A stretch of 56,888 nt of DNA from a virus: positions 1-56,888 of IMG/VR virus record IMGVR_UViG_3300046536_000656. One strand, written 5' to 3'. Under the pieces are notes generated by a model, which was not told where the DNA came from, searched no databases, and saw only the letters and a list, made by a program, of their open reading frames with translations. A program made the position numbers and the translations under genes. Position 1 is the stretch's first letter. Each line of letters begins with the position of its first letter. Shown in pieces: positions 10,767-51,871 of the stretch.

Positions 10767-12259
10767 ACGTTTTTCAACTTCCAGTCAATGCGCGCGAAAT
10801 CTTCCTCGAGGAAGAGAATGCGTCCGCCCGGGCGGAGCACGCGCTTCAACTCCGCCTCCACCTTATTTAAGATCGCGGCAAACGAGGACAGGCAGGCGAT
10901 CGCGACCACGAGGTCAAACGCCCCATCTTGGAACGGCAGCGATGTGGCATGCGCTACCAGGAATTCGAGGTCGGGTAGCGATTCACGCGCCTTATCCACC
11001 AACTCTGGTATAAAGTCGGTACCGATGTAGCTTTTCGCAAGACGTGAAATCGGCCAACTCATTCGCCCCCATCCGCAGCCAACCTCAAGCACGTCCTTAT
11101 CCCGCGCGTGCTCCTGCAGGATCGACATATGCTCTGCCGTGAATTCGTTGATCCGCGCCTGCGGGGTCGTCAGGAACGTCGACGCGTGAGCGCCGTGCTG
11201 CTTCACCCGCGTAGACCAGAACTCGAATGTCGATCTGGCCTCCAGGCCGGAGGCCTCGGTCCAGACGGATGGCGGCAAACCTTCCTCGCCGTACATGATC
11301 GGATCGCGAATCAGATCGCGGAAAGGCTTCGGCATGCACGATTGCTCAGATCCTAATGTGAATATCGGCTGGTAATGCTGCCTCATGAAAGTATTGATCG
11401 CGTCCAAGCTAAGACCTTTCTTCGGCAACTGCTCGAGTCCGCCGTGATTCTGCACGTACTTACGTACGCCGTCGATTCCGCCGACCGACTCCCACCAGGC
11501 GTTCCCCTCGTCGCGTACTTTCTTGACCTCCGCGTCGTACTCCGGGTAGTCGTTCGACAGCACCTGATCTTCCTTCAGATTGAGCAACTTCACCGGAACC
11601 TTCGAATACATCGCGAATCGCCAGTCCGAGTACGCCGAGGCTTCCTGAATGTAGGCGCCCCATCCAGAGATCAAGCACCGGTCATCCGGCCCGGCACCGG
11701 GCGCACGCGGGAACTTCTCGAATAGCAGGCCGCGTTCTCTTATCATGGCCATGTTAATCAGGACTCCGGTGCCGAGGCAGGCCGGGTTGAAGTAGAGCGT
11801 ATGCTCACCGAACGGATACTTTGGCATCGCCGCGTACCAATCCACAGCCTTTAGCCCGGGAGGGCGCAGGCAAGTGCCACTCACTGCGCCGATTGGGTTA
11901 TATTTGCCCATCGTGCTTGTCATCACGTCCATCAGGTCCGCCAGCCAGTTATCCGGCAGGATCGTATCGTTATCACATTTGACAACATACGGAGCGCCCG
12001 CATGCCTACGGAAGAACCAGTTCATGGCTGGAGCGAGGCCGACGTTTTTCGGACTAAAGTGGATATGCGGGCCTATCGCATTCCGCTGTTGACGCCAGGA
12101 GATTTCCTCCTTTAGCCACTCGACTGTCCCGTCGGTAGATCCGTTGTCCCAGATCACCAATTCGATCGGCAGGCCCGGGCTGTAGCAGATAGATTCAAGC
12201 GCCTGCTTCGAGTACTCCAGCCGGTTGTAAGTCACAAACAGAACCGGTATCGGATTCAT
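10763..12259 (-). CDS. Fused GT2 glycosyltransferase and SAM methyltransferase
   Basis: 498 residues from ATG 12259, which overlaps the upstream stop (ATGA). Domain 1 (about 1-290) is a GT2 (GT-A fold) enzyme: PVLFVTYNRLEYSKQAL, WDNGSTDGT and the DND metal motif at about 96-98. Domain 2 (about 340-498) is a class I methyltransferase: LEVGCGWGR (391-399), IGTDF, FDLVVAIACLSS and LRPGGRILFLEED. One polypeptide could therefore transfer a sugar and methylate the product (or cap chain growth), as in some O-antigen capping systems. That comparison is inference. Another methyltransferase-containing fusion lies at 19.5 kb. Confidence 0.88.
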   Translation of the reverse strand: MNPIPVLFVTYNRLEYSKQALESICYSPGLPIELVIWDNGSTDGTVEWLKEEISWRQQRNAIGPHIHFSPKNVGLAPAMNWFFRRHAGAPYVVKCDNDTILPDNWLADLMDVMTSTMGKYNPIGAVSGTCLRPPGLKAVDWYAAMPKYPFGEHTLYFNPACLGTGVLINMAMIRERGLLFEKFPRAPGAGPDDRCLISGWGAYIQEASAYSDWRFAMYSKVPVKLLNLKEDQVLSNDYPEYDAEVKKVRDEGNAWWESVGGIDGVRKYVQNHGGLEQLPKKGLSLDAINTFMRQHYQPIFTLGSEQSCMPKPFRDLIRDPIMYGEEGLPPSVWTEASGLEARSTFEFWSTRVKQHGAHASTFLTTPQARINEFTAEHMSILQEHARDKDVLEVGCGWGRMSWPISRLAKSYIGTDFIPELVDKARESLPDLEFLVAHATSLPFQDGAFDLVVAIACLSSFAAILNKVEAELKRVLRPGGRILFLEEDFARIDWKLKNV

Positions 12260-47185: not shown

Positions 47186-47371
47186 ATGAAATGTATCTGC
47201 TGCGATAAAACATTTGGCGACTACGCGCTCAAAACAGGATGCCTTATCCCGATCACGAGCAAACTCAACCTATTCCCGGGTATCGTCTACTGCTGCCTCA
47301 AGTGCAACCGCGAGATCCTCGAGGACTGGGTCTACAAGAAGCGGGAGATCGCCGACCTGAAGGTCTCGTAA
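47186..47371 (+). CDS. Small zinc-ribbon protein
   Basis: 61 residues from ATG 47186 (an in-frame GTG at 47165 adds seven). CICC (3-6) and CCLKC (about 38-42) make a four-cysteine ribbon. It is the last plus-strand gene and ends at the 3' end of the first tRNA of the opposite strand. Confidence 0.6.
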   Translation: MKCICCDKTFGDYALKTGCLIPITSKLNLFPGIVYCCLKCNREILEDWVYKKREIADLKVS

Positions 47372-47442
47372 CTGCCCCGGCAGGAATCGGACCTGCGCTT
47401 CCGGATTCAAAGTCCGGCGCCTCACCATTCGGCCACAGGGCA
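47372..47442 (-). tRNA. tRNA-Gln(TTG)
   Basis: Cloverleaf visible; anticodon loop CTTTGAA. T-loop TCCGATT has C instead of U at position 55. Last gene of the leftward tRNA array. CCA not encoded. Confidence 0.88.
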
Positions 47443-47446
47443 AAAG

Positions 47447-47531
47447 CGGAAGAGCGGGGGATCGAACCCCGATGACGCTCACGCGCCGCCGCATTAGCAG
47501 TGCGGACCCTTACCATTCGGGCCACTCTTCC
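47447..47531 (-). tRNA. tRNA-Ser(GCT)
   Basis: Anticodon loop CTGCTAA, long variable arm, T-loop TTCGATC, acceptor GGAAGAG with CTCTTCC, discriminator G. Confidence 0.9.
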
Positions 47532-47534
47532 AAG

Positions 47535-47606
47535 AGTCCACGGCCGGAATCGGACCGGCGATAATGGTTTTGCAGACCATCCCCTTAGCCATTTGGGTAC
47601 GTGGAC
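47535..47606 (-). tRNA. tRNA-Cys(GCA)
   Basis: Anticodon loop CTGCAAA, acceptor GTCCACG with CGTGGAC, discriminator U as usual for Cys. T-loop TCCGATT (C55). Confidence 0.9.
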
Positions 47607-47609
47607 AAG

Positions 47610-47688
47610 TAGCCCCTGAGAGATTTGAACTCTCACCCTTTCGGATCCGGGTCTAAGCCGGACGTGTATGCCATTTCACCAAGGGGCC
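47610..47688 (-). tRNA. tRNA-Leu(TAG)
   Basis: Anticodon loop CTTAGAC, stem CCGG paired, class II variable arm (11 bases), T-loop TTCAAAT, discriminator A. First acceptor pair is G-U. Confidence 0.85.
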
Positions 47689-47692
47689 AAAG

Positions 47693-47772
47693 TGCCGGCC
47701 ACGAGAGTTGAACTCGTACCCTTTCGGATCCGCTCTTAAGGCGGATGCGTCTGCCTGTTCCGCCAGGCCGGC
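47693..47772 (-). tRNA. tRNA-Leu(TAA)
   Basis: Anticodon loop CTTAAGA in stem TCCGC/GCGGA, class II variable arm, T-loop TTCAACT, discriminator A. Confidence 0.88.
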
Positions 47773-47776
47773 AAAG

Positions 47777-47867
47777 AGGAAGCGGTGAGATTCGAACTCA
47801 CGAGATAGCCTTTCAACTACCCGCCGGGTTTCGGGTCCGGTGTCTTAAACCACTCGACCACGCTTCC
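47777..47867 (-). tRNA. tRNA-Ser(CGA), non-canonical
   Basis: Long variable arm and Ser-type D-arm. The anticodon loop CCCGAAA has C at position 33 instead of the near-universal U. The 31-39 pair is A-C, and the discriminator is U instead of G. It may be decayed or need editing. Confidence 0.75.
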
Positions 47868-47870
47868 AAG

Positions 47871-47955
47871 TGCGAACGGAAGGATTTGAACCTTCGTAGC
47901 CCCAAGGGGCAACAGTTTTACAGACTGCCGTCGTTGGCCGCTTGACTACGTTCGC
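47871..47955 (-). tRNA. tRNA-Tyr(GTA)
   Basis: Anticodon loop CTGTAAA, long variable arm as in bacterial Tyr tRNAs, acceptor GCGAACG with CGTTCGC, discriminator A, T-loop TTCAAAT. Confidence 0.9.
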
Positions 47956-47958
47956 AAA

Positions 47959-48042
47959 TCCCGAACAACAGACTTGAACTGTTACGCCTTGAAGGGGCAC
48001 CGGGTTTTGAGTCCGGCGTGTCTACCGTTCCACCAGTTCGGG
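47959..48042 (-). tRNA. tRNA-Leu(CAA)
   Basis: Anticodon loop CTCAAAA, class II variable arm, discriminator A. The 31-39 pair is an A-C mismatch, as in two other tRNAs of the array. Confidence 0.87.
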
Positions 48043-48184
48043 TGATTTTTGATTTACAGGGATTGACAATAACTGAGGCGTAATGAGGGTCGCAAGCGGA
48101 GTGAGCGCAGGAAACGGTCGATCATGTGGCGAACTGTAATCTTTCGCATGGGGGCCACTTTAAATCCTTTTGTCCAGGATGTCA
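48043..48184. other. Spacer inside the tRNA array
   Basis: 142 bases without a tRNA. A basic 31-codon frame (minus strand, ATG 48149 to 48054) has no ribosome-binding site and is not supported. Short inverted repeats (TGTGGC/GGCCAC) are present. No function seen. Confidence 0.4.
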
Positions 48185-48257
48185 AGCGCCTGCGGAGAAT
48201 CGAACTCCGGATCGTCGTCTTAGGAGGACGCTGCTCTGTCCGCTGAGCTACAGGCGC
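48185..48257 (-). tRNA. tRNA-Arg(CCT)
   Basis: Anticodon loop CTCCTAA; acceptor GCGCCTG with CAGGCGC perfect; T-loop TTCGATT. Pair 27-43 is mismatched. Confidence 0.88.
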
Positions 48258-48259
48258 GA

Positions 48260-48330
48260 TACCGAGGCTGGGAATCGGACCCAAATATCTGGATACACAG
48301 GCCAGCATTCTGCCATTGAATTACCTCGGC
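48260..48330 (-). tRNA. tRNA-His(GTG)
   Basis: Anticodon loop CTGTGTA, T-loop TCCGATT (C55). The first base G faces U, or is an extra G before a six-pair stem, as the G-1 of His tRNAs. Pair 31-39 (C-U) is broken. Confidence 0.75.
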
Positions 48331-48333
48331 GCA

Positions 48334-48407
48334 TGCCAGCGGTGGGGTATGATCCCACAGCCCTCCGCTTAAAAGGCGGTTACTCTGTCCGTTTGAGTTA
48401 CGCTGGC
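48334..48407 (-). tRNA. tRNA-Lys(TTT)
   Basis: Anticodon loop CTTTTAA, acceptor GCCAGCG with CGCTGGC, discriminator A. T-loop ATCATAC has A54 and U58 in place of U54 and A58. Confidence 0.86.
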
Positions 48408-48409
48408 GA

Positions 48410-48481
48410 TGCCACGGGTGGGGATTGGACCCACGACGCCCGGCTTTTCAGACCGGCGCTCTACCACTGAGCTACCGCGGC
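48410..48481 (-). tRNA. tRNA-Phe(GAA)
   Basis: Anticodon loop CTGAAAA, acceptor GCCGCGG with CCGTGGC, discriminator A, T-loop TCCAATC (C55). Confidence 0.9.
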
Positions 48482-48514
48482 AAGCAGATCGCGCGGTCAT
48501 AGACCGCGTCTACA

Positions 48515-48587
48515 TGCTCGAGGGGAGAATCGGACTCCCGACACCCGGCTTATCAGACCGGAACTCTGACCACTGAGTTACTCGAGC
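48515..48587 (-). tRNA. tRNA-Ile(GAT)
   Basis: Anticodon loop CTGATAA, acceptor GCTCGAG with CTCGAGC perfect, discriminator A, T-loop TCCGATT (C55). Confidence 0.9.
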
Positions 48588-48589
48588 GA

Positions 48590-48661
48590 CAGGGTGTAGC
48601 GGATTCGAACCGCTGATCTTCCGTTAGAGAGACGGAGGACTTGCCGCTAGTCGAACACCCC
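48590..48661 (-). tRNA. tRNA-Glu(CTC)
   Basis: Anticodon loop CTCTCTA in stem TCCGT/ACGGA, T-loop TTCGAAT, discriminator G. Confidence 0.87.
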
Positions 48662-48664
48662 AAG

Positions 48665-48735
48665 TAGCGCCGCGGAGAATCGGACTCCGATCATCGGGTT
48701 GAAAGCCCGATTGCTTACCCTTGGCATACGGCGCC
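48665..48735 (-). tRNA. tRNA-Glu(TTC)
   Basis: Anticodon loop CTTTCAA in stem TCGGG/CCCGA, acceptor GGCGCCG paired, T-loop TCCGATT (C55), discriminator A. Confidence 0.88.
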
Positions 48736-48880
48736 AAAATTATTCCAAAATTATTCCCACGGTGAAGGTTAGCATCGCTCCTAATCCCTCATCCCCCCGT
48801 CAGCGATGATCGGGGTGCCCTTAACGGAGGCGCCTTGTCAGGCTGACACTTGACTCGTGTCTTGCCGTGGGAACTTCAAG
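48736..48880 (-). ncRNA. Structured spacer, candidate RNA within the tRNA array
   Basis: 145 bases with no gene but much pairing. TTCCCACGG (48754-48762) and CCGTGGGAA (48865-48873) form a perfect 9-bp closing stem. Inside are CATCGCT/AGCGATG and GACAC/GTGTC. Next to the closing stem is a direct repeat AAAATTATTCC (twice). Read on the minus strand a U-rich tail (TAATTTTGG) follows the closing stem. A stable co-transcribed RNA is possible; nothing proves it. Confidence 0.35.
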
Positions 48881-48954
48881 CGGAGATGACCGGATTCGAA
48901 CCGGCGATATCCTCATCGACAGTGAGGTGCCTTGAGCCGCTAGGCGACATCTCC
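48881..48954 (-). tRNA. tRNA-Asp(GTC)
   Basis: Anticodon loop CTGTCGA in stem CCTCA/TGAGG, acceptor GGAGATG with CATCTCC, discriminator G, T-loop TTCGAAT. Confidence 0.92.
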
Positions 48955-48957
48955 AAG

Positions 48958-49029
48958 TGCGGTAGACGGGAATCGGACCCGCAATCTCTTCGTTGGCAAC
49001 GAAGCGCCTTGCCGTTGGGCCACTACCGC
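48958..49029 (-). tRNA. tRNA-Gly(GCC)
   Basis: Anticodon loop TTGCCAA in stem CTTCG/CGAAG, acceptor GCGGTAG with CTACCGC, T-loop TCCGATT (C55). Confidence 0.9.
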
Positions 49030-49057
49030 AAACATGTCTAATCGTACATACTTCAAA

Positions 49058-49128
49058 TGCCTCGAGCGGGAATCGGACCCGCAGTCTCTGGTTGGAAGCC
49101 AGACGGTTTACCACTAACCGACCGAGGC
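49058..49128 (-). tRNA. tRNA-Gly(TCC)
   Basis: Anticodon loop CTTCCAA in stem TCTGG/CCAGA, T-loop TCCGATT (C55), discriminator A. Confidence 0.9.
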
Positions 49129-49132
49129 GAAG

Positions 49133-49204
49133 TACCCGCGAGGCGACTCGAACGCCTATCATCCTGATTCGTAGTCAGGTGCCTATCCGTTAGACTACGC
49201 GGGC
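49133..49204 (-). tRNA. tRNA-Arg(ACG)
   Basis: Anticodon loop CTACGAA in stem CCTGA/TCAGG, T-loop TTCGAGT, discriminator A. A34 would need deamination to inosine to read all CGN. Confidence 0.9.
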
Positions 49205-49208
49205 AAAG

Positions 49209-49284
49209 CTGGCAGGGTGGGTTTCGAACCCACATCTATTCCGGTTAACAGCCGGACGCATTACCGAATGTTTGCTACCTGCCA
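49209..49284 (-). tRNA. tRNA-Asn(GTT)
   Basis: Anticodon loop CTGTTAA in stem TCCGG/CCGGA, acceptor TGGCAGG with CCTGCCA, discriminator G, T-loop TTCGAAA. Confidence 0.9.
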
Positions 49285-49285
49285 A

Positions 49286-49359
49286 TCGATCCGGTGGGAG
49301 TCGGACCCACAACATTCCGCTTTCGGAGAGCGGTGCCCTGTCCATTAGGCGACGGATCG
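49286..49359 (-). tRNA. tRNA-Arg(CCG)
   Basis: Anticodon loop CTCCGAA in stem CCGCT/AGCGG, acceptor CGATCCG with CGGATCG, T-loop TCCGACT (C55), discriminator A. Confidence 0.9.
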
Positions 49360-49362
49360 CAA

Positions 49363-49435
49363 CTGGGTCATCAGGCTTCGAACCTGAAACATCCGCTTTC
49401 AGAGAGCGGCGCTCTGCCAGTTGAGCTATGACCCA
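49363..49435 (-). tRNA. tRNA-Gln(CTG)
   Basis: Anticodon loop CTCTGAA in stem CCGCT/AGCGG, acceptor TGGGTCA with TGACCCA, discriminator G, T-loop TTCGAAG. Confidence 0.9.
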
Positions 49436-49436
49436 A

Positions 49437-49509
49437 TGCTGTCCCGGGGCAACGATCCCCGAACCTACCGGGTAAGAGCCGGTTGCTCTGCCAGTTGAGC
49501 TAGGACAGC
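49437..49509 (-). tRNA. tRNA-Lys(CTT)
   Basis: Anticodon loop CTCTTAC in stem ACCGG/CCGGT, acceptor GCTGTCC with GGACAGC, discriminator A. T-loop ATCGTTG (A54, U58), identical to the Val and Thr(TGT) genes nearby. Confidence 0.88.
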
Positions 49510-49725
49510 TTATTCAATATATCCAGCAAGTTCGGCCGTGCAGAACGGACGGTCCGTTCTCTCCAGTTGATACCGGTCGAAAACATCTAACAATTTCCGA
49601 AAGGCAGTACCATTTTCCCTGTCTTCCAATGAGGCAGTAACGAAAATCATAACCGCCGATTCTACACTCTTCCTGAGTAACCGCCGGTGGCGGCGCCTTT
49701 CCGCTCGCGGCTTCTTCTTTCTCAT
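49510..49725 (-). CDS. Small basic protein wedged between two tRNAs
   Basis: 71 codons. ATG 49725 lies one base after the 3' end of tRNA-Val, and the TAA stop touches the 5' end of tRNA-Lys(CTT). The only ribosome-binding-like bases (AGGGG) are the 3' acceptor strand of tRNA-Val. The first 20 residues are very basic (MRKKKPRAERRRHRRLLRKS); the rest is mixed (VMIFVTASLEDREN). Translation would compete with tRNA processing. The exact fit into the gap argues for a real gene, though it could be chance. Confidence 0.5.
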   Translation of the reverse strand: MRKKKPRAERRRHRRLLRKSVESAVMIFVTASLEDRENGTAFRKLLDVFDRYQLERTDRPFCTAELAGYIE

Positions 49726-49726
49726 A

Positions 49727-49799
49727 TAGCCCCTGGAGGCAACGATCCCCCAACCTCCCGGGTGTAGGCCGGGCGCTCTGCCGGTTGAGCTAAGGAGCC
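49727..49799 (-). tRNA. tRNA-Val(TAC), non-canonical
   Basis: Stem CCCGG/CCGGG is perfect; the loop is CCTACAC, so the anticodon is TAC with C at position 33 instead of U. T-loop ATCGTTG (A54, U58). Acceptor GGCTCCT with AGGGGCT (two wobbles). Confidence 0.78.
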
Positions 49800-49806
49800 A
49801 TGTCAA

Positions 49807-49879
49807 AGCCAACGGCCGGCAACGATCCGGCAACATCCGGTTTACAGGACCGGCGTTCTGCCTATTGAACTACGTCGGC
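49807..49879 (-). tRNA. tRNA-Thr(TGT), non-canonical
   Basis: Stem CCGGT/ACCGG with loop CCTGTAA: anticodon TGT, C at position 33. T-loop ATCGTTG (A54, U58). Acceptor GCCGACG with CGTTGGC. Confidence 0.8.
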
Positions 49880-49882
49880 GAA

Positions 49883-49947
49883 GGTCCAGCCAGTCTCCAG
49901 TAACTACCGTCCTAGGACGGCGCTCTACCAGTACATGGGGCCAGACC
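49883..49947 (-). pseudogene. Truncated tRNA-like sequence (65 nt)
   Basis: Spaced like a member of the array. Acceptor GGTCTGG pairs with CTGGACC and the 5' part contains ACTGGTAGAGCG. The D-stem 5' half cannot pair, the anticodon region is a palindrome (CCGTCCTAGGACGG) with no proper 7-base loop, and there is no T-loop consensus. Read as a decayed tRNA; the anticodon cannot be assigned. Confidence 0.55.
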
Positions 49948-49949
49948 AA

Positions 49950-50020
49950 AGCCACAGCCGGGAATTGAACCCGAGTATCTCGCTTACCAAGCGAGTGCCT
50001 TACCACTCGGCCACTGCGGC
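49950..50020 (-). tRNA. tRNA-Thr(GGT)
   Basis: Anticodon loop TTGGTAA in stem CTCGC/GCGAG, acceptor GCCGCAG with CTGTGGC, T-loop TTCAATT. Confidence 0.9.
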
Positions 50021-50023
50021 GAA

Positions 50024-50096
50024 AGCCAGCGGGGAGAATCGGACTCCCGACCTGTGCGTTACGAGTGCACTGCTCTACCAATTGAGCTACGCCGGC
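50024..50096 (-). tRNA. tRNA-Thr(CGT)
   Basis: Anticodon loop CTCGTAA; pair 31-39 is A-C. Acceptor GCCGGCG with CGCTGGC, T-loop TCCGATT (C55). Confidence 0.87.
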
Positions 50097-50099
50097 AAA

Positions 50100-50171
50100 T
50101 TGCCCCGGGGAGAATTGGACTCCCGACCCTTGGCTTATGAGACCAGTGCTCTACCTCTGAGCTACGGGGCG
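50100..50171 (-). tRNA. tRNA-Met(CAT), initiator-like acceptor
   Basis: Anticodon loop CTCATAA. First base C faces A72 (unpaired), the mark of bacterial initiator tRNAs, with A73. It lacks the three G-C pairs of the initiator anticodon stem and has an elongator-like C11-G24 pair. T-loop TCCAATT (C55). First tRNA of the long cluster. Confidence 0.82.
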
Positions 50172-50173
50172 AC

Positions 50174-50210
50174 AAAAAGAAAGGCCGAAACCTTGTTCGG
50201 GTTTCGGCCT
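50174..50210 (-). terminator. Terminator-like hairpin directly before the tRNA cluster
   Basis: Minus-strand AGGCCGAAACC and GGTTTCGGCCT make a perfect 11-bp stem with a 7-base loop, then TTCTTTTTG, ending 2 bases before tRNA-Met. It lies between the promoter at 50399-50426 and the tRNAs, so it must be read through or act as an attenuator or leader-RNA terminator. Confidence 0.75.
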
Positions 50211-50398
50211 GGACTTTCCGGATTTTGCTGTCTGCTTATCCGGTAACCCCAGGCACGCGCGTACCCATGATATTTCGATCATGAGTGCGTTCGACCTGGT
50301 GTTTAAAAGACATAAGTATCTCGTATAATTGCCGACGGCCAGCGGTCTGACCGTCAGAGCAGAAAGGCATTTCAGAACATCAACACAAGTAGATTCTG
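50211..50398 (-). ncRNA. Leader of the long tRNA cluster / candidate small RNA
   Basis: About 190 bases between promoter and terminator hairpin, without a credible open frame. Contains CATGAT...ATCATG and GACGGTC...GACCGTC-type inverted repeats. It could be a short RNA of about 190-220 nt ended by the hairpin or an attenuating leader of the tRNA operon. It is supported only by the order of promoter, structured stretch and terminator. Confidence 0.35.
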
Positions 50399-50426
50399 AT
50401 TATCCACAACTCGTGCTGGCTGTCAA
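50399..50426 (-). promoter_or_regulatory. Sigma-70 promoter of the long tRNA cluster
   Basis: TTGACA (perfect -35) and GATAAT (-10) are 16 bases apart on the minus strand. The bases around the -10 box (TGGATAATCAGA) are the same as in the promoter at 51695-51722, in front of the second tRNA cluster. Confidence 0.7.
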
Positions 50427-50428
50427 GC

Positions 50429-50450
50429 GCTTCCTAATATTTTAGGAAGC
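50429..50450 (-). repeat. Inverted repeat after gene 50450-51070
   Basis: GCTTCCTAA and TTAGGAAGC, 9 bp each, with a 4-base loop. It starts at the stop codon and is directly followed by the -35 box of the tRNA promoter. No T-run, so an RNA-stabilising hairpin or an operator is as likely as a terminator. Confidence 0.5.
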
Positions 50451-51070
50451 TACGCTGCTTCCGGCAACGCGGCTCCCGCTTTCTTCCCGTACTTCCGAAT
50501 GATCAACTTCTCGATGACCGCGCGTTCATCGTCCTTCGCGACCTCGAGCAGCCCGGCCAGAAACATCTTGGTCGTCCGCGGCAGGTATTCGGTCACCCGC
50601 TTCTTCCGCTTGGCCTTCCGGATCCCCGCCCGTTCTTCGTACGCCCGGATGGCGGCGGTTATCCGCTTGCCGGCGCGGGAGTCGTACTTGCCGCCTCCAT
50701 CTTCAATGTCATCCGGGTTGCGTCCACAGAGCGCGACGATCAGACGCCGACGGGGCGTCAACGACGGATCCGGAATCTCCAGTTGGTTTCGGCCGGCCAT
50801 CAGTTCGACAAACTTGGCCTGGATCTCCGACTCCGCCTGGAAATACAGCCAATAGATTTCGCCGGCCAGCCACTGCCCGCCCTCGTGCTCCCGGTCGGCC
50901 GCAACCCAACGCTCGACGAATGTCAGGACATTCGGGTCGACGATCCGGTGCGCGTCCGGCTTTCGCGCCCCTAGTTTCTGAACTAAGCGTACGACCTTCT
51001 GATCGCCAAGAATGATCTGCTGTTTCGGCAGATGGATCGCCCTCGGCCGTACTCCCTCTTTAGTACTCAT
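50450..51070 (-). CDS. Hypothetical protein between the two tRNA clusters
   Basis: 206 residues from ATG 51070 with GGAGG 5 bases before it. Charged and helical; basic region RAGIRKAKRKKRVTEYLPRT at about 150-170 and SLTPRRRLIVAL earlier. No family recognised. A perfect 18-bp palindrome lies just upstream of its ribosome-binding site, so it may be autoregulated. Gap 51100-51219 holds an 8-bp hairpin (TCTGTCGG/CCGACAGA) and two AAATAGGG copies, no gene. Confidence 0.6.
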   Translation of the reverse strand: MSTKEGVRPRAIHLPKQQIILGDQKVVRLVQKLGARKPDAHRIVDPNVLTFVERWVAADREHEGGQWLAGEIYWLYFQAESEIQAKFVELMAGRNQLEIPDPSLTPRRRLIVALCGRNPDDIEDGGGKYDSRAGKRITAAIRAYEERAGIRKAKRKKRVTEYLPRTTKMFLAGLLEVAKDDERAVIEKLIIRKYGKKAGAALPEAA

Positions 51071-51081
51071 ATGGTCCTCCA

Positions 51082-51099
51082 AGTTTAATTAATTAAACT
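51082..51099. promoter_or_regulatory. Perfect AT-rich palindrome (operator candidate)
   Basis: AGTTTAATTAATTAAACT, 18 bp, perfectly symmetric, between a TATAGT -10-like box and the GGAGG of gene 50450-51070. Similar half-sites (AGTTTA...TAAACT) occur at 54630-54651, and AATTAAACTT at 42276. Confidence 0.5.
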
Positions 51100-51219
51100 A
51101 TACTAAAAGGCTAGAACGGAAGACATAGGCGTGTCTGTCGGTCTGTGTCCGACAGAGTACTTAGGGCGGAGTAGGGCAGAAACGTGGTTGAAATAGGGTC
51201 AAATAGGGCTGAAACGCGA

Positions 51220-51308
51220 CACGGACGGCGCGATTCGAACGCGCAGCGCGACCATTACGGTCAACCGGTTTTGGAGACCGGTGCTTTCAACCATTCAGCC
51301 ACGTCCGT
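51220..51308 (-). tRNA. Class II tRNA with CCA anticodon (Trp/Ser chimera)
   Basis: 89 nt. Acceptor ACGGACG with CGTCCGT (A1-U72), discriminator G. The D-arm GCTGAATGGTTGAAAGC is serine-like. The anticodon arm CCGGT-CTCCAAA-ACCGG is the same as in bacterial tRNA-Trp. The variable arm is long (20 nt, TGACC...GGTC paired) as in Ser, where Trp tRNAs have 5 nt. T-arm GCGCG-TTCGAAT-CGCGC. Anticodon CCA reads UGG. Trp identity elements (CCA, G73, A1-U72) and the Ser element (long variable arm) are both present. Confidence 0.85.
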
Positions 51309-51312
51309 AAAG

Positions 51313-51385
51313 TACCCTCGGCACGACTTGAACGCGCAACCCTGCCGGTAGAAACGGCTCGCTCTTTCCGTTGAGCTACGAGGGC
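51313..51385 (-). tRNA. tRNA-Arg(TCT)
   Basis: Loop TTTCTAC, stem of four pairs plus an A-A, T-loop TTCAAGT, acceptor GCCCTCG with CGAGGGT, discriminator A. Confidence 0.83.
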
Positions 51386-51389
51386 AAAG

Positions 51390-51462
51390 TAGACCTCCCG
51401 AGAGTCGAACTCGGCGCCTCCGCATTGCAAGTGCGGCGCTCTCCCAGATGAGCTAGAGGCCC
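51390..51462 (-). tRNA. tRNA-Ala(TGC)
   Basis: Anticodon loop CTTGCAA in stem CCGCA/TGCGG, T-loop TTCGACT, acceptor GGGCCTC with GAGGTCT (two wobbles), discriminator A. Confidence 0.88.
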
Positions 51463-51469
51463 AGACAAG

Positions 51470-51541
51470 TAGGGATGTGGAGAATCGAACTCCAGAAAGC
51501 CGGTGCCCAAGACCGGAGCCATACCACTTGGCGACATCCCT
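51470..51541 (-). tRNA. tRNA-Pro(TGG)
   Basis: Anticodon loop CTTGGGC in stem CCGGT/ACCGG, acceptor AGGGATG with CATCCCT, T-loop TTCGATT. First tRNA of the short cluster. Confidence 0.9.
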
Positions 51542-51764: not shown

Positions 51765-51871
51765 CCCAGTCGACTGTTTACTCTAGCGTGGTTTTAAATT
51801 GCGGCGGCGTTAATTGAAAACGCTATCTTCTGGTTATGAGCCAGACGGGCTACCGGCACCCTCCAGCCGCG
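51765..51871 (-). ncRNA. Candidate small RNA after gene 51887
   Basis: A third promoter, short stretch and terminator set: TTGACA/TAAATT (51878-51906), about 105 bases with a GGCT...AGCC stem, then the 51726-51764 hairpin. No credible open frame. The stretch could equally be the 3' untranslated end of the operon. Confidence 0.3.

Follow-up and report, generated by a model that had tools for sequence, protein, structure and literature searches.

A phage tRNA with a tryptophan anticodon in a serine-type body: a probable class II tRNA-Trp

The long variable arm is a textbook marker of the tRNAs for serine, leucine, tyrosine and selenocysteine, and it is the main identity element for seryl-tRNA synthetase (SerRS). 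A tRNA that joins such an arm to the anticodon of tRNA-Trp raises the question of which amino acid it delivers to UGG codons. The gene for such a tRNA lies on the minus strand of the viral stretch analysed here (the window, 56,888 nt), and the initial annotation had left an even choice between tryptophan and serine.

A class II tRNA gene with a tryptophan anticodon

ARAGORN called a tRNA-Trp(cca) at 51218–51309(−), and the Rfam model RF00005 matched 51220–51308(−) over positions 1–71 of its 71 with 60.3 bits, against a gathering score of 29. The gene (51220–51308, minus strand, as are all its parts) comprises 89 nt from A1 to G73, the 3′ CCA not being encoded in the DNA, and folds into a cloverleaf in which the acceptor has seven pairs, the D stem three, and the anticodon and T stems five each. 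The 5′ side of the acceptor stem, ACGGACG (51302–51308), forms A1–U72, C2–G71, G3–C70 and G4–C69 with the 3′ side, CGTCCGT, which together with the discriminator G73 occupies 51220–51227. After a linking TG comes a serine-type D arm (51283–51299), with a GCT/AGC stem closing the 11-nt loop GAATGGTTGAA in both the cloverleaf and the alignment with the relative described below, and a single A leads on to the anticodon arm CCGGT-CTCCAAA-ACCGG (51265–51281), with the anticodon CCA at 51272–51274. The 20-nt paired variable region TTGACCGTAATGGTCGCGCT (51245–51264) and the T arm GCGCG-TTCGAAT-CGCGC (51228–51244) complete the molecule. The tryptophan-type anticodon arm and the serine-type D and variable arms that had been proposed for this gene are thus confirmed by the ARAGORN call and the cloverleaf, and the long arm is also kept in the relative.

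With 20 nt, the variable region lacks the shortness of class I bacterial tRNA-Trp and has the paired stretch of at least 10 nt that marks class II. It forms a six-pair hairpin including two G·T pairs, which taken alone is not significant (shuffle p = 0.10); among the copies described below the variable-arm stems gave p values from 0.002 to 0.59 per sequence, mostly not significant singly, and one copy (L145) has just three pairs by the pairing measure of the shuffle test. An intron or insertion in the variable loop was rejected, as ARAGORN with introns allowed returned the same 92-base intron-free gene. Neither of the outcomes named beforehand as refuting a long arm appeared, since the call is intron-free and the arm is kept in relatives. 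The window gene is a well-formed class II tRNA with a tryptophan anticodon.

The gene belongs to an array of 32 tRNA genes called by ARAGORN at 47371–51541(−), with every one of the 20 amino acids represented among the anticodons; most of the array is set apart from the gene by a 210-aa reading frame (50450–51082) that has no PHROG match. Two true class II serine tRNAs are present, tRNA-Ser(CGA) at 47776–47867(−), with G1–C72, G2–C71 and U73, and tRNA-Ser(GCU) at 47446–47531(−), with G1–C72, G2–C71 and G73, and both recur with the same sequence at another locus (L038). The tRNA-Ser(CGA) of the window and that of the relative (L037:9722–9813) carry C at position 33 in place of the near-universal U, together with U73. 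A viral contig of 109,586 bases (G001) has the same tRNA array and a portal gene 100% identical to that of the window over 605 residues, and all 33 RF00005 matches in the whole contig fall within the array. One weak additional match at 104497–104567 of G001, apparently with a CAT anticodon (36.8 bits), corresponds by offset to about 51800–51870(−) of the window and was not called in the window scans. By ARAGORN, the long-arm gene is the sole tRNA-Trp in the window, in the G001 pieces scanned and, as its counterpart, in all of the relative G002, which agrees with its earlier description as the only tRNA-Trp of the array.

This relative (G002, 107,420 bases; locus L037) has a portal 67% identical to that of the window phage, with 57% protein identity between the two phages, and carries a long-arm tRNA-Trp(CCA) amid the same Ala, Pro and Arg neighbours. 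In the alignment of the two copies the acceptor stem is identical throughout, as is the hairpin core GACCGTAATGGTC; by eye, the T-stem pairs 50–64, 51–63 and 52–62 and the D-stem pair 12–23 are changed on both sides, and the tertiary 15–48 pair is A–U in the window copy and G–C in the relative. The shared neighbours and the covariation point to vertical inheritance of a molecule that is folded and used. Only four of the five anticodon-stem pairs form in L037:6667–6755 (A31·C39, with G37), in L050 (A31·C39) and in L099:10144–10230 (A·G at 27–43); excerpts of one paper tie 4-bp anticodon stems in tRNA-Trp to UGA reading (PMC13092985). Just before its tRNA array, G002 also encodes a GGQ-motif protein with a release-factor-1-like part (L037:5686–6336); the window showed no GGQ frame resembling a release factor.

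The acceptor end and the use of UGG

We compared the acceptor ends of 21 distinct long-arm Trp sequences, drawn from 24 loci (22 viral loci plus the Erwinia phages Hena1 and IT22) after removal of three exact duplicates, with those of 29 distinct serine tRNAs from the same loci and one further phage record (L147). Base 73 is G in all 21 Trp copies, pair 1–72 is A–U in 12, U–A in 8 and G–C in 1, pair 2–71 is C–G in 15, G–C in 5 and U–A in 1, and pair 3–70 is G–C in 19 and A–U in 2. The serine tRNAs have G–C at 1–72 in 28 cases (A–U in 1), G–C at 2–71 in all 29 and A–U at 3–70 in 27 (U–A in 2), with G, U and A at base 73 in 18, 7 and 4. The combined G1–C72 and G2–C71 start, conserved in most bacterial tRNA-Ser (PMC9976931), is found in 0 of 21 Trp copies versus 28 of 29 serine tRNAs. 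Fisher tests gave p = 2e-5 for A1–U72 and 2e-8 for C2–G71, values that overstate the evidence because the copies are related.

As a cellular yardstick, ordinary tRNA-Trp(CCA) genes were taken from four phyla, with a maximum of 30 loci per phylum; the 120 loci yielded 99 calls. All 99 have A1–U72 and G73, so that the reading of these two features as fitting tryptophan holds, and none exceeds 78 nt. U1–A72 occurs in none of the 99, which speaks against the tryptophan reading for the eight long-arm copies that carry it, all of them related sequences. C2–G71 is present in 28/28 Bacteroidota and in 1/71 of the other three phyla; a smaller set of ordinary Trp tRNAs, found by the anticodon loop CTCCAAA, has A1–U72 in 12/12 and C2–G71 in 10/12. 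The 5′ end of the window copy, ACGG, matches 10 of the 28 Bacteroidota tRNAs in its first four bases and 27 in its first three, and its A1–U72, C2–G71, G3–C70, G4–C69 and G73 form a Trp end of the Bacteroidota type. Copies from the Erwinia phages start with AGGGA and have A1–U72, G2–C71 and G3–C70; in the phylum sample built around a gammaproteobacterial genome, G2–C71 is found in 26/27 Trp tRNAs and an AGGG start in 7/27. The acceptor end thus seems to follow the tRNA-Trp of the host group. Shine–Dalgarno-like motifs precede 10 of 22 window genes (4.1 in shuffles), and frequent motifs of this kind are atypical of Bacteroidota. The capsid protein has four matching records, from Myxococcus and Microcystis phages at 23–25%, and the 9.9-kb end of the window has no near phage record at the DNA level.

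According to excerpts of PMC9976931, bacterial tryptophan identity lies in G73, the anticodon and the first acceptor pair (Escherichia coli and Bacillus subtilis), with strong contributions from G2–C71, G3–C70 and G4–C69 in B. subtilis, where tryptophanyl-tRNA synthetase (TrpRS) needs G2–C71; serine identity lies mainly in the long arm, and SerRS ignores the anticodon. The same source describes C2–G71 of E. coli tRNA-Leu as an antideterminant against E. coli SerRS, and G73 of E. coli tRNA-Ser as one against LeuRS and TyrRS. The window copy has G3–C70 and G4–C69 with C–G at 2–71. It lacks the G1–C72 and G2–C71 pairs of tRNA-Ser, having A1–U72 and C2–G71 instead, as well as a serine anticodon; by eye, it keeps the long variable arm, C11–G24, G30–C40 and G73. 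The last base also departs from the A73 that is a feature of tRNA-Leu and is found in 17 of 20 phage Leu tRNAs of the studied loci. A73 is likewise a feature of bacterial tRNA-Tyr (PMC9976931). By the published identity rules, the window copy should be a substrate of TrpRS and a poorer one of SerRS. Two caveats apply to this prediction. The C2–G71 of the window copy is at odds with the B. subtilis need for G2–C71, and fits the Trp tRNAs of Bacteroidota, which the Shine–Dalgarno-like motifs do not; and the antideterminant role of C2–G71 is known from E. coli tRNA-Leu, while the window copy keeps other serine elements.

To see how UGG is used, 68 non-overlapping homologous reading frames of the two phages were aligned (17,767 codons, 57% identity). 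Tryptophan is kept at 258 of 323 aligned sites (80%), the highest share of the 20 amino acids; its main replacements are Tyr (14) and Phe (14), and one Ser stands opposite a G002 Trp. In the window alone (37 genes), 135 of 170 Trp are kept, 2 are opposite Ser and 1 is found in the reverse direction; a count that took in antisense shadow frames (171/281 kept, 12 opposite Ser) was set aside. UGG thus behaves as a tryptophan codon in this phage family. A host tRNA could also supply this decoding, so the count argues against a strong serine inserter and is not proof of charging with tryptophan. Together with the absent serine signature, the tryptophan-type end and C2–G71, it shifts the choice mostly towards tryptophan: the two amino acids no longer appear as equals, although some serylation may occur.

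A reassignment of TGA to tryptophan was rejected, as TGA is the terminator in 33 of the 66 aligned frames whose stop codon is complete. Tentative signs of TAG recoding were met elsewhere: CTA-anticodon tRNAs, called tRNA-Pyl by ARAGORN, occur in the class II tRNA-Trp loci L051, L086, L099 and L113, possibly from TAG-recoded phages. The Hena1 array that holds the class II tRNA-Trp also contains a 108-base tRNA annotated tRNA-sup(tca) (L180:12339–12446). A gene of the TrpRS/TyrRS family (PF00579) is present in 9 of 21 long-arm Trp contigs, a count that leaves out the contig of L050, and none was found in G001 or G002. The idea that a phage TrpRS specifically serves the long-arm tRNA was dropped, because the PF00579 genes tested are tyrosyl-tRNA synthetases: L157 and L159, from class II tRNA-Trp contigs, by TIGR00234, and L158 and L160–L163 by the same sequence features by eye, with L164 and L165 outside the comparison.

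Occurrence and possible origin of the long-arm tRNA-Trp

Viral contigs were scanned with a pattern combining a serine-type D loop, the CCA anticodon loop and a long variable region, leaving the acceptor stem and base 73 unconstrained. The pattern matched 81 stretches on contigs of 6.9 to 412 kb, and ARAGORN called a tRNA in 23 of these, 22 of them long-arm tRNA-Trp(CCA) and one (L054) an ordinary class I gene. One of the copies, L063, is matched at 100% by six Erwinia phage records, which represent four phages including Hena1, two being entered twice, and at 93% by a seventh record, that of phage IT22; all seven label the gene plain tRNA-Trp. Of the two named phages, Hena1 is assigned to Vequintavirinae, IT22 to Straboviridae. 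The search for the same tRNA in related phages, which the initial annotation had proposed, thus found it in G002, in other viral contigs and in named Erwinia phages. Another 18 phage-collection records labelled tRNA-Trp (16 Gordonia and 2 Streptomyces phages) were rejected, with less than half of the window query aligned, and the one examined is a 74-nt class I gene. Among the literature matches listed (titles and the starts of abstracts, covering few subscription journals), none describes a long-arm tRNA-Trp in phages.

A slightly stricter pattern, which recovers 20 of the 22 viral copies, was run on the genome contigs of 84,980 prokaryote species and gave 24 matches, in none of which ARAGORN called a tRNA. 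This result, along with the limit of 78 nt in all 99 cellular tRNA-Trp(CCA), upholds within the test the earlier statement that long-arm Trp tRNAs are not normal in bacteria. Long-arm tRNA-Trp of the scanned form was found here in viral sequences only; other forms could escape the pattern. In two contigs an ordinary class I tRNA-Trp(CCA) lies directly beside the class II one (L073:6410–6580 and L113:2911–3080), so that filling in for a missing tRNA would not be a full account there.

We then compared the window tRNA with known systems. It shares the anticodon, the loop CTCCAAA, A1–U72 and G73 with bacterial class I tRNA-Trp(CCA), and C2–G71 and mostly G3–C70 with that of Bacteroidota, and differs from the class I form (at most 78 nt in 99/99) in its 20-nt paired variable region and 3-bp D stem. 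With class II tRNA-Ser of bacteria and phages it shares the D arm, the long variable arm and the body (0.73 to the Ser(GCU) of the relative), but tRNA-Ser has G1–C72, G2–C71 and A3–U70 where the phage tRNA has A1–U72, C2–G71 and G3–C70, with CCA as its anticodon. As described in excerpts of PMC7609411, the allo-tRNAs of Clostridia, Proteobacteria and Acidobacteria likewise combine a long variable arm with mostly non-serine anticodons, but have 8/4 or 9/3 acceptor/T stems and serine (in some cases alanine) identity, in contrast to the 7/5 stems and Trp-type end seen here. The selC* tRNA-Cys of the same source is also a long-armed tRNA served by a synthetase other than those for Ser, Leu and Tyr; however, it resembles tRNA-Sec, has an 8-bp acceptor stem and is paired with a special CysRS*, whereas the phage tRNA has 7/5 stems and G001 and G002 carry no PF00579 gene. 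The 7-bp acceptor and 5-bp T stems rule out both identities. Alloacceptor anticodon shifts in eukaryotes include, in the extracts of PMC3923123, one shift only with a Ser/Sec anticodon, compared with many phage cases of a serine-type body with a Trp anticodon. The best reading of the window gene is a class II tRNA-Trp that would work like tRNA-Trp and is built like tRNA-Ser.

When bodies are compared without the acceptor, 17 of the 21 copies are closest to a serine tRNA, counting ties. The window copy is among them, with the relative's Ser(GCU) and a long-arm Cys tRNA sharing first place; for the other four, a family that includes the Erwinia phage copies, the closest body is a long-arm Thr tRNA of a T5-type phage. 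The tRNA of L074 matches four phage-collection records labelled Ser or Tyr at about 76%. A tree of 59 class II bodies (71 columns, acceptor left out and anticodon masked) needs seven changes of the Trp label, or eight with every row counted; it does not reject a single Trp origin (p-AU 0.116), leaves 28 of 56 inner branches open and gave long-branch warnings. The tree suggests several switches, and does not by itself establish descent from tRNA-Ser or the number of events.

Charging, alternatives and a possible wider use of the long arm

The explanation we favour, at a probability of about 0.83, is a serine-type body converted to tryptophan identity, giving a working elongator tRNA charged by TrpRS; the charging, the descent from tRNA-Ser and the order of events are what we infer from the features above. 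A tRNA-Ser-like gene in a phage array would have gained a CCA anticodon, and this change may have made it a TrpRS substrate, because TrpRS recognizes its tRNA chiefly by the anticodon, G73 and the first pairs of the acceptor. The acceptor would then have shifted from G1–C72, G2–C71 and A3–U70 to the start of the host-group tRNA-Trp (here A1–U72, C2–G71 and G3–C70), favouring TrpRS and disfavouring SerRS, and the long arm could have been kept because TrpRS needs no short one. TyrRS, the sister enzyme of TrpRS, binds the long-arm tRNA-Tyr, which makes acceptance of such an arm by TrpRS plausible. The tRNA would read UGG as tryptophan and serve this codon in a phage equipped with a tRNA set for the full 20 amino acids.

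Body swaps of this kind may extend beyond tryptophan. In the sequences of the long-arm Trp loci and of one T5-type record, distinct tRNAs of at least 80 nt (bases 1–72) also occur with anticodons other than those of Ser, Leu and Tyr: Thr 6, Asn 4, Met 2, Cys 1 and Lys 1. The six Thr tRNAs, at L144:292–378 (Escherichia phage EASG3, a T5-type phage of E. coli), L051:7680–7763, L073:8209–8293, L099:8930–9015 and L114:10585–10669 and 11217–11299, all have G1–C72 and C2–G71. Base 73 is U in the Cys tRNA (L099:9531–9614), A in the Lys tRNA (L073:9570–9652), G in two Asn tRNAs (L063:2976–3061 and L045:1166–1256) and A in one Met tRNA (L109:11681–11770), and the other Met tRNA (L074) has an unpaired end. 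U73 fits cysteine and A73 fits methionine. G73 for Asn, A73 for Lys and G1–C72 with C2–G71 for Thr are listed as bacterial identity features in excerpts of PMC9976931. In these tRNAs, too, base 73 appears to suit the amino acid of the anticodon, which makes body swapping beyond tryptophan a candidate for a general phenomenon.

An alternative that is compatible with charging by TrpRS sees the body swap as a counter-defence, in which the long arm, whether retained or newly acquired, shields the tRNA from host nucleases that cut tRNA-Trp; we consider it unlikely, if the best placed of the alternatives. Phages escape tRNA-targeting defences by means of tRNAs (PMC11555353 and PMC10264068, in excerpt; a term search of the latter found no words for Trp or the variable loop), a bacterial toxin cleaves a phage tRNA-Trp(CCA) in vitro (PMC13273310), and phage tRNAs for Thr, Cys, Lys, Asn and Met are body-swapped as well. 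However, the loop CTCCAAA of the window copy is that of the ordinary Trp tRNAs compared, a set gathered by this very loop, so a nuclease that acts on the anticodon loop would still find its target there, and the same toxin study reports a cut in the variable loop of a tRNA-Ser, meaning that a long arm can itself be a target (PMC13273310).

Charging by both TrpRS and SerRS, with a regulated or tolerated minority of serine at UGG, would account for the meeting of serine features (long arm, G73) and tryptophan features (CCA, A1–U72, G73) in one molecule. We judge it distinctly improbable, since the acceptor end lies away from serine and the arguments against serine charging apply here also. Improbable to a still greater degree is charging mainly by SerRS through the long arm, by which a share of UGG would be mistranslated as serine, as allo-tRNAs do at their codons. 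SerRS does read the long arm and ignore the anticodon (PMC9976931), body identity elements outweigh the anticodon in E. coli (PMC7609411, in excerpt), and C11–G24, G30–C40 and G73 are retained in the window copy. Against this, none of the Trp copies has the serine start that is nearly invariant in the serine tRNAs of the same loci, 15 of 21 carry the SerRS antideterminant C2–G71, and Trp sites are the most conserved of all and hardly ever stand opposite Ser, whereas strong mistranslation of Trp codons as Ser would affect conserved positions by the hundred. A decaying or non-functional gene or an assembly artefact, for which no supporting evidence was found, is scarcely credible given the compensatory D- and T-stem changes, the changed 15–48 pair, the intact cloverleaf and the recurrence in other contigs and named phage genomes.

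If conversion to tryptophan identity is the true explanation, a serine-type body would be movable to a new amino acid by the anticodon and a few acceptor pairs. We tentatively raise the possibility that phages use the long-arm frame as a general chassis, switched repeatedly to Trp, Thr, Cys, Lys, Asn and Met, each time with the acceptor end proper to the new amino acid and in a way not used by cells, and that with their altered body these tRNAs may go unrecognized by host nucleases, toxins or modification enzymes that act on ordinary tRNAs; the Thr case of EASG3 is accessible in the laboratory. For annotation, the finding means that a class II body lies hidden under the plain label tRNA-Trp in seven Erwinia phage records. 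Such tRNAs would also offer natural templates for long-armed tRNAs served by synthetases other than SerRS, and a natural long-arm tRNA-Trp in very different phages would be a direct test of the rules of tRNA identity.
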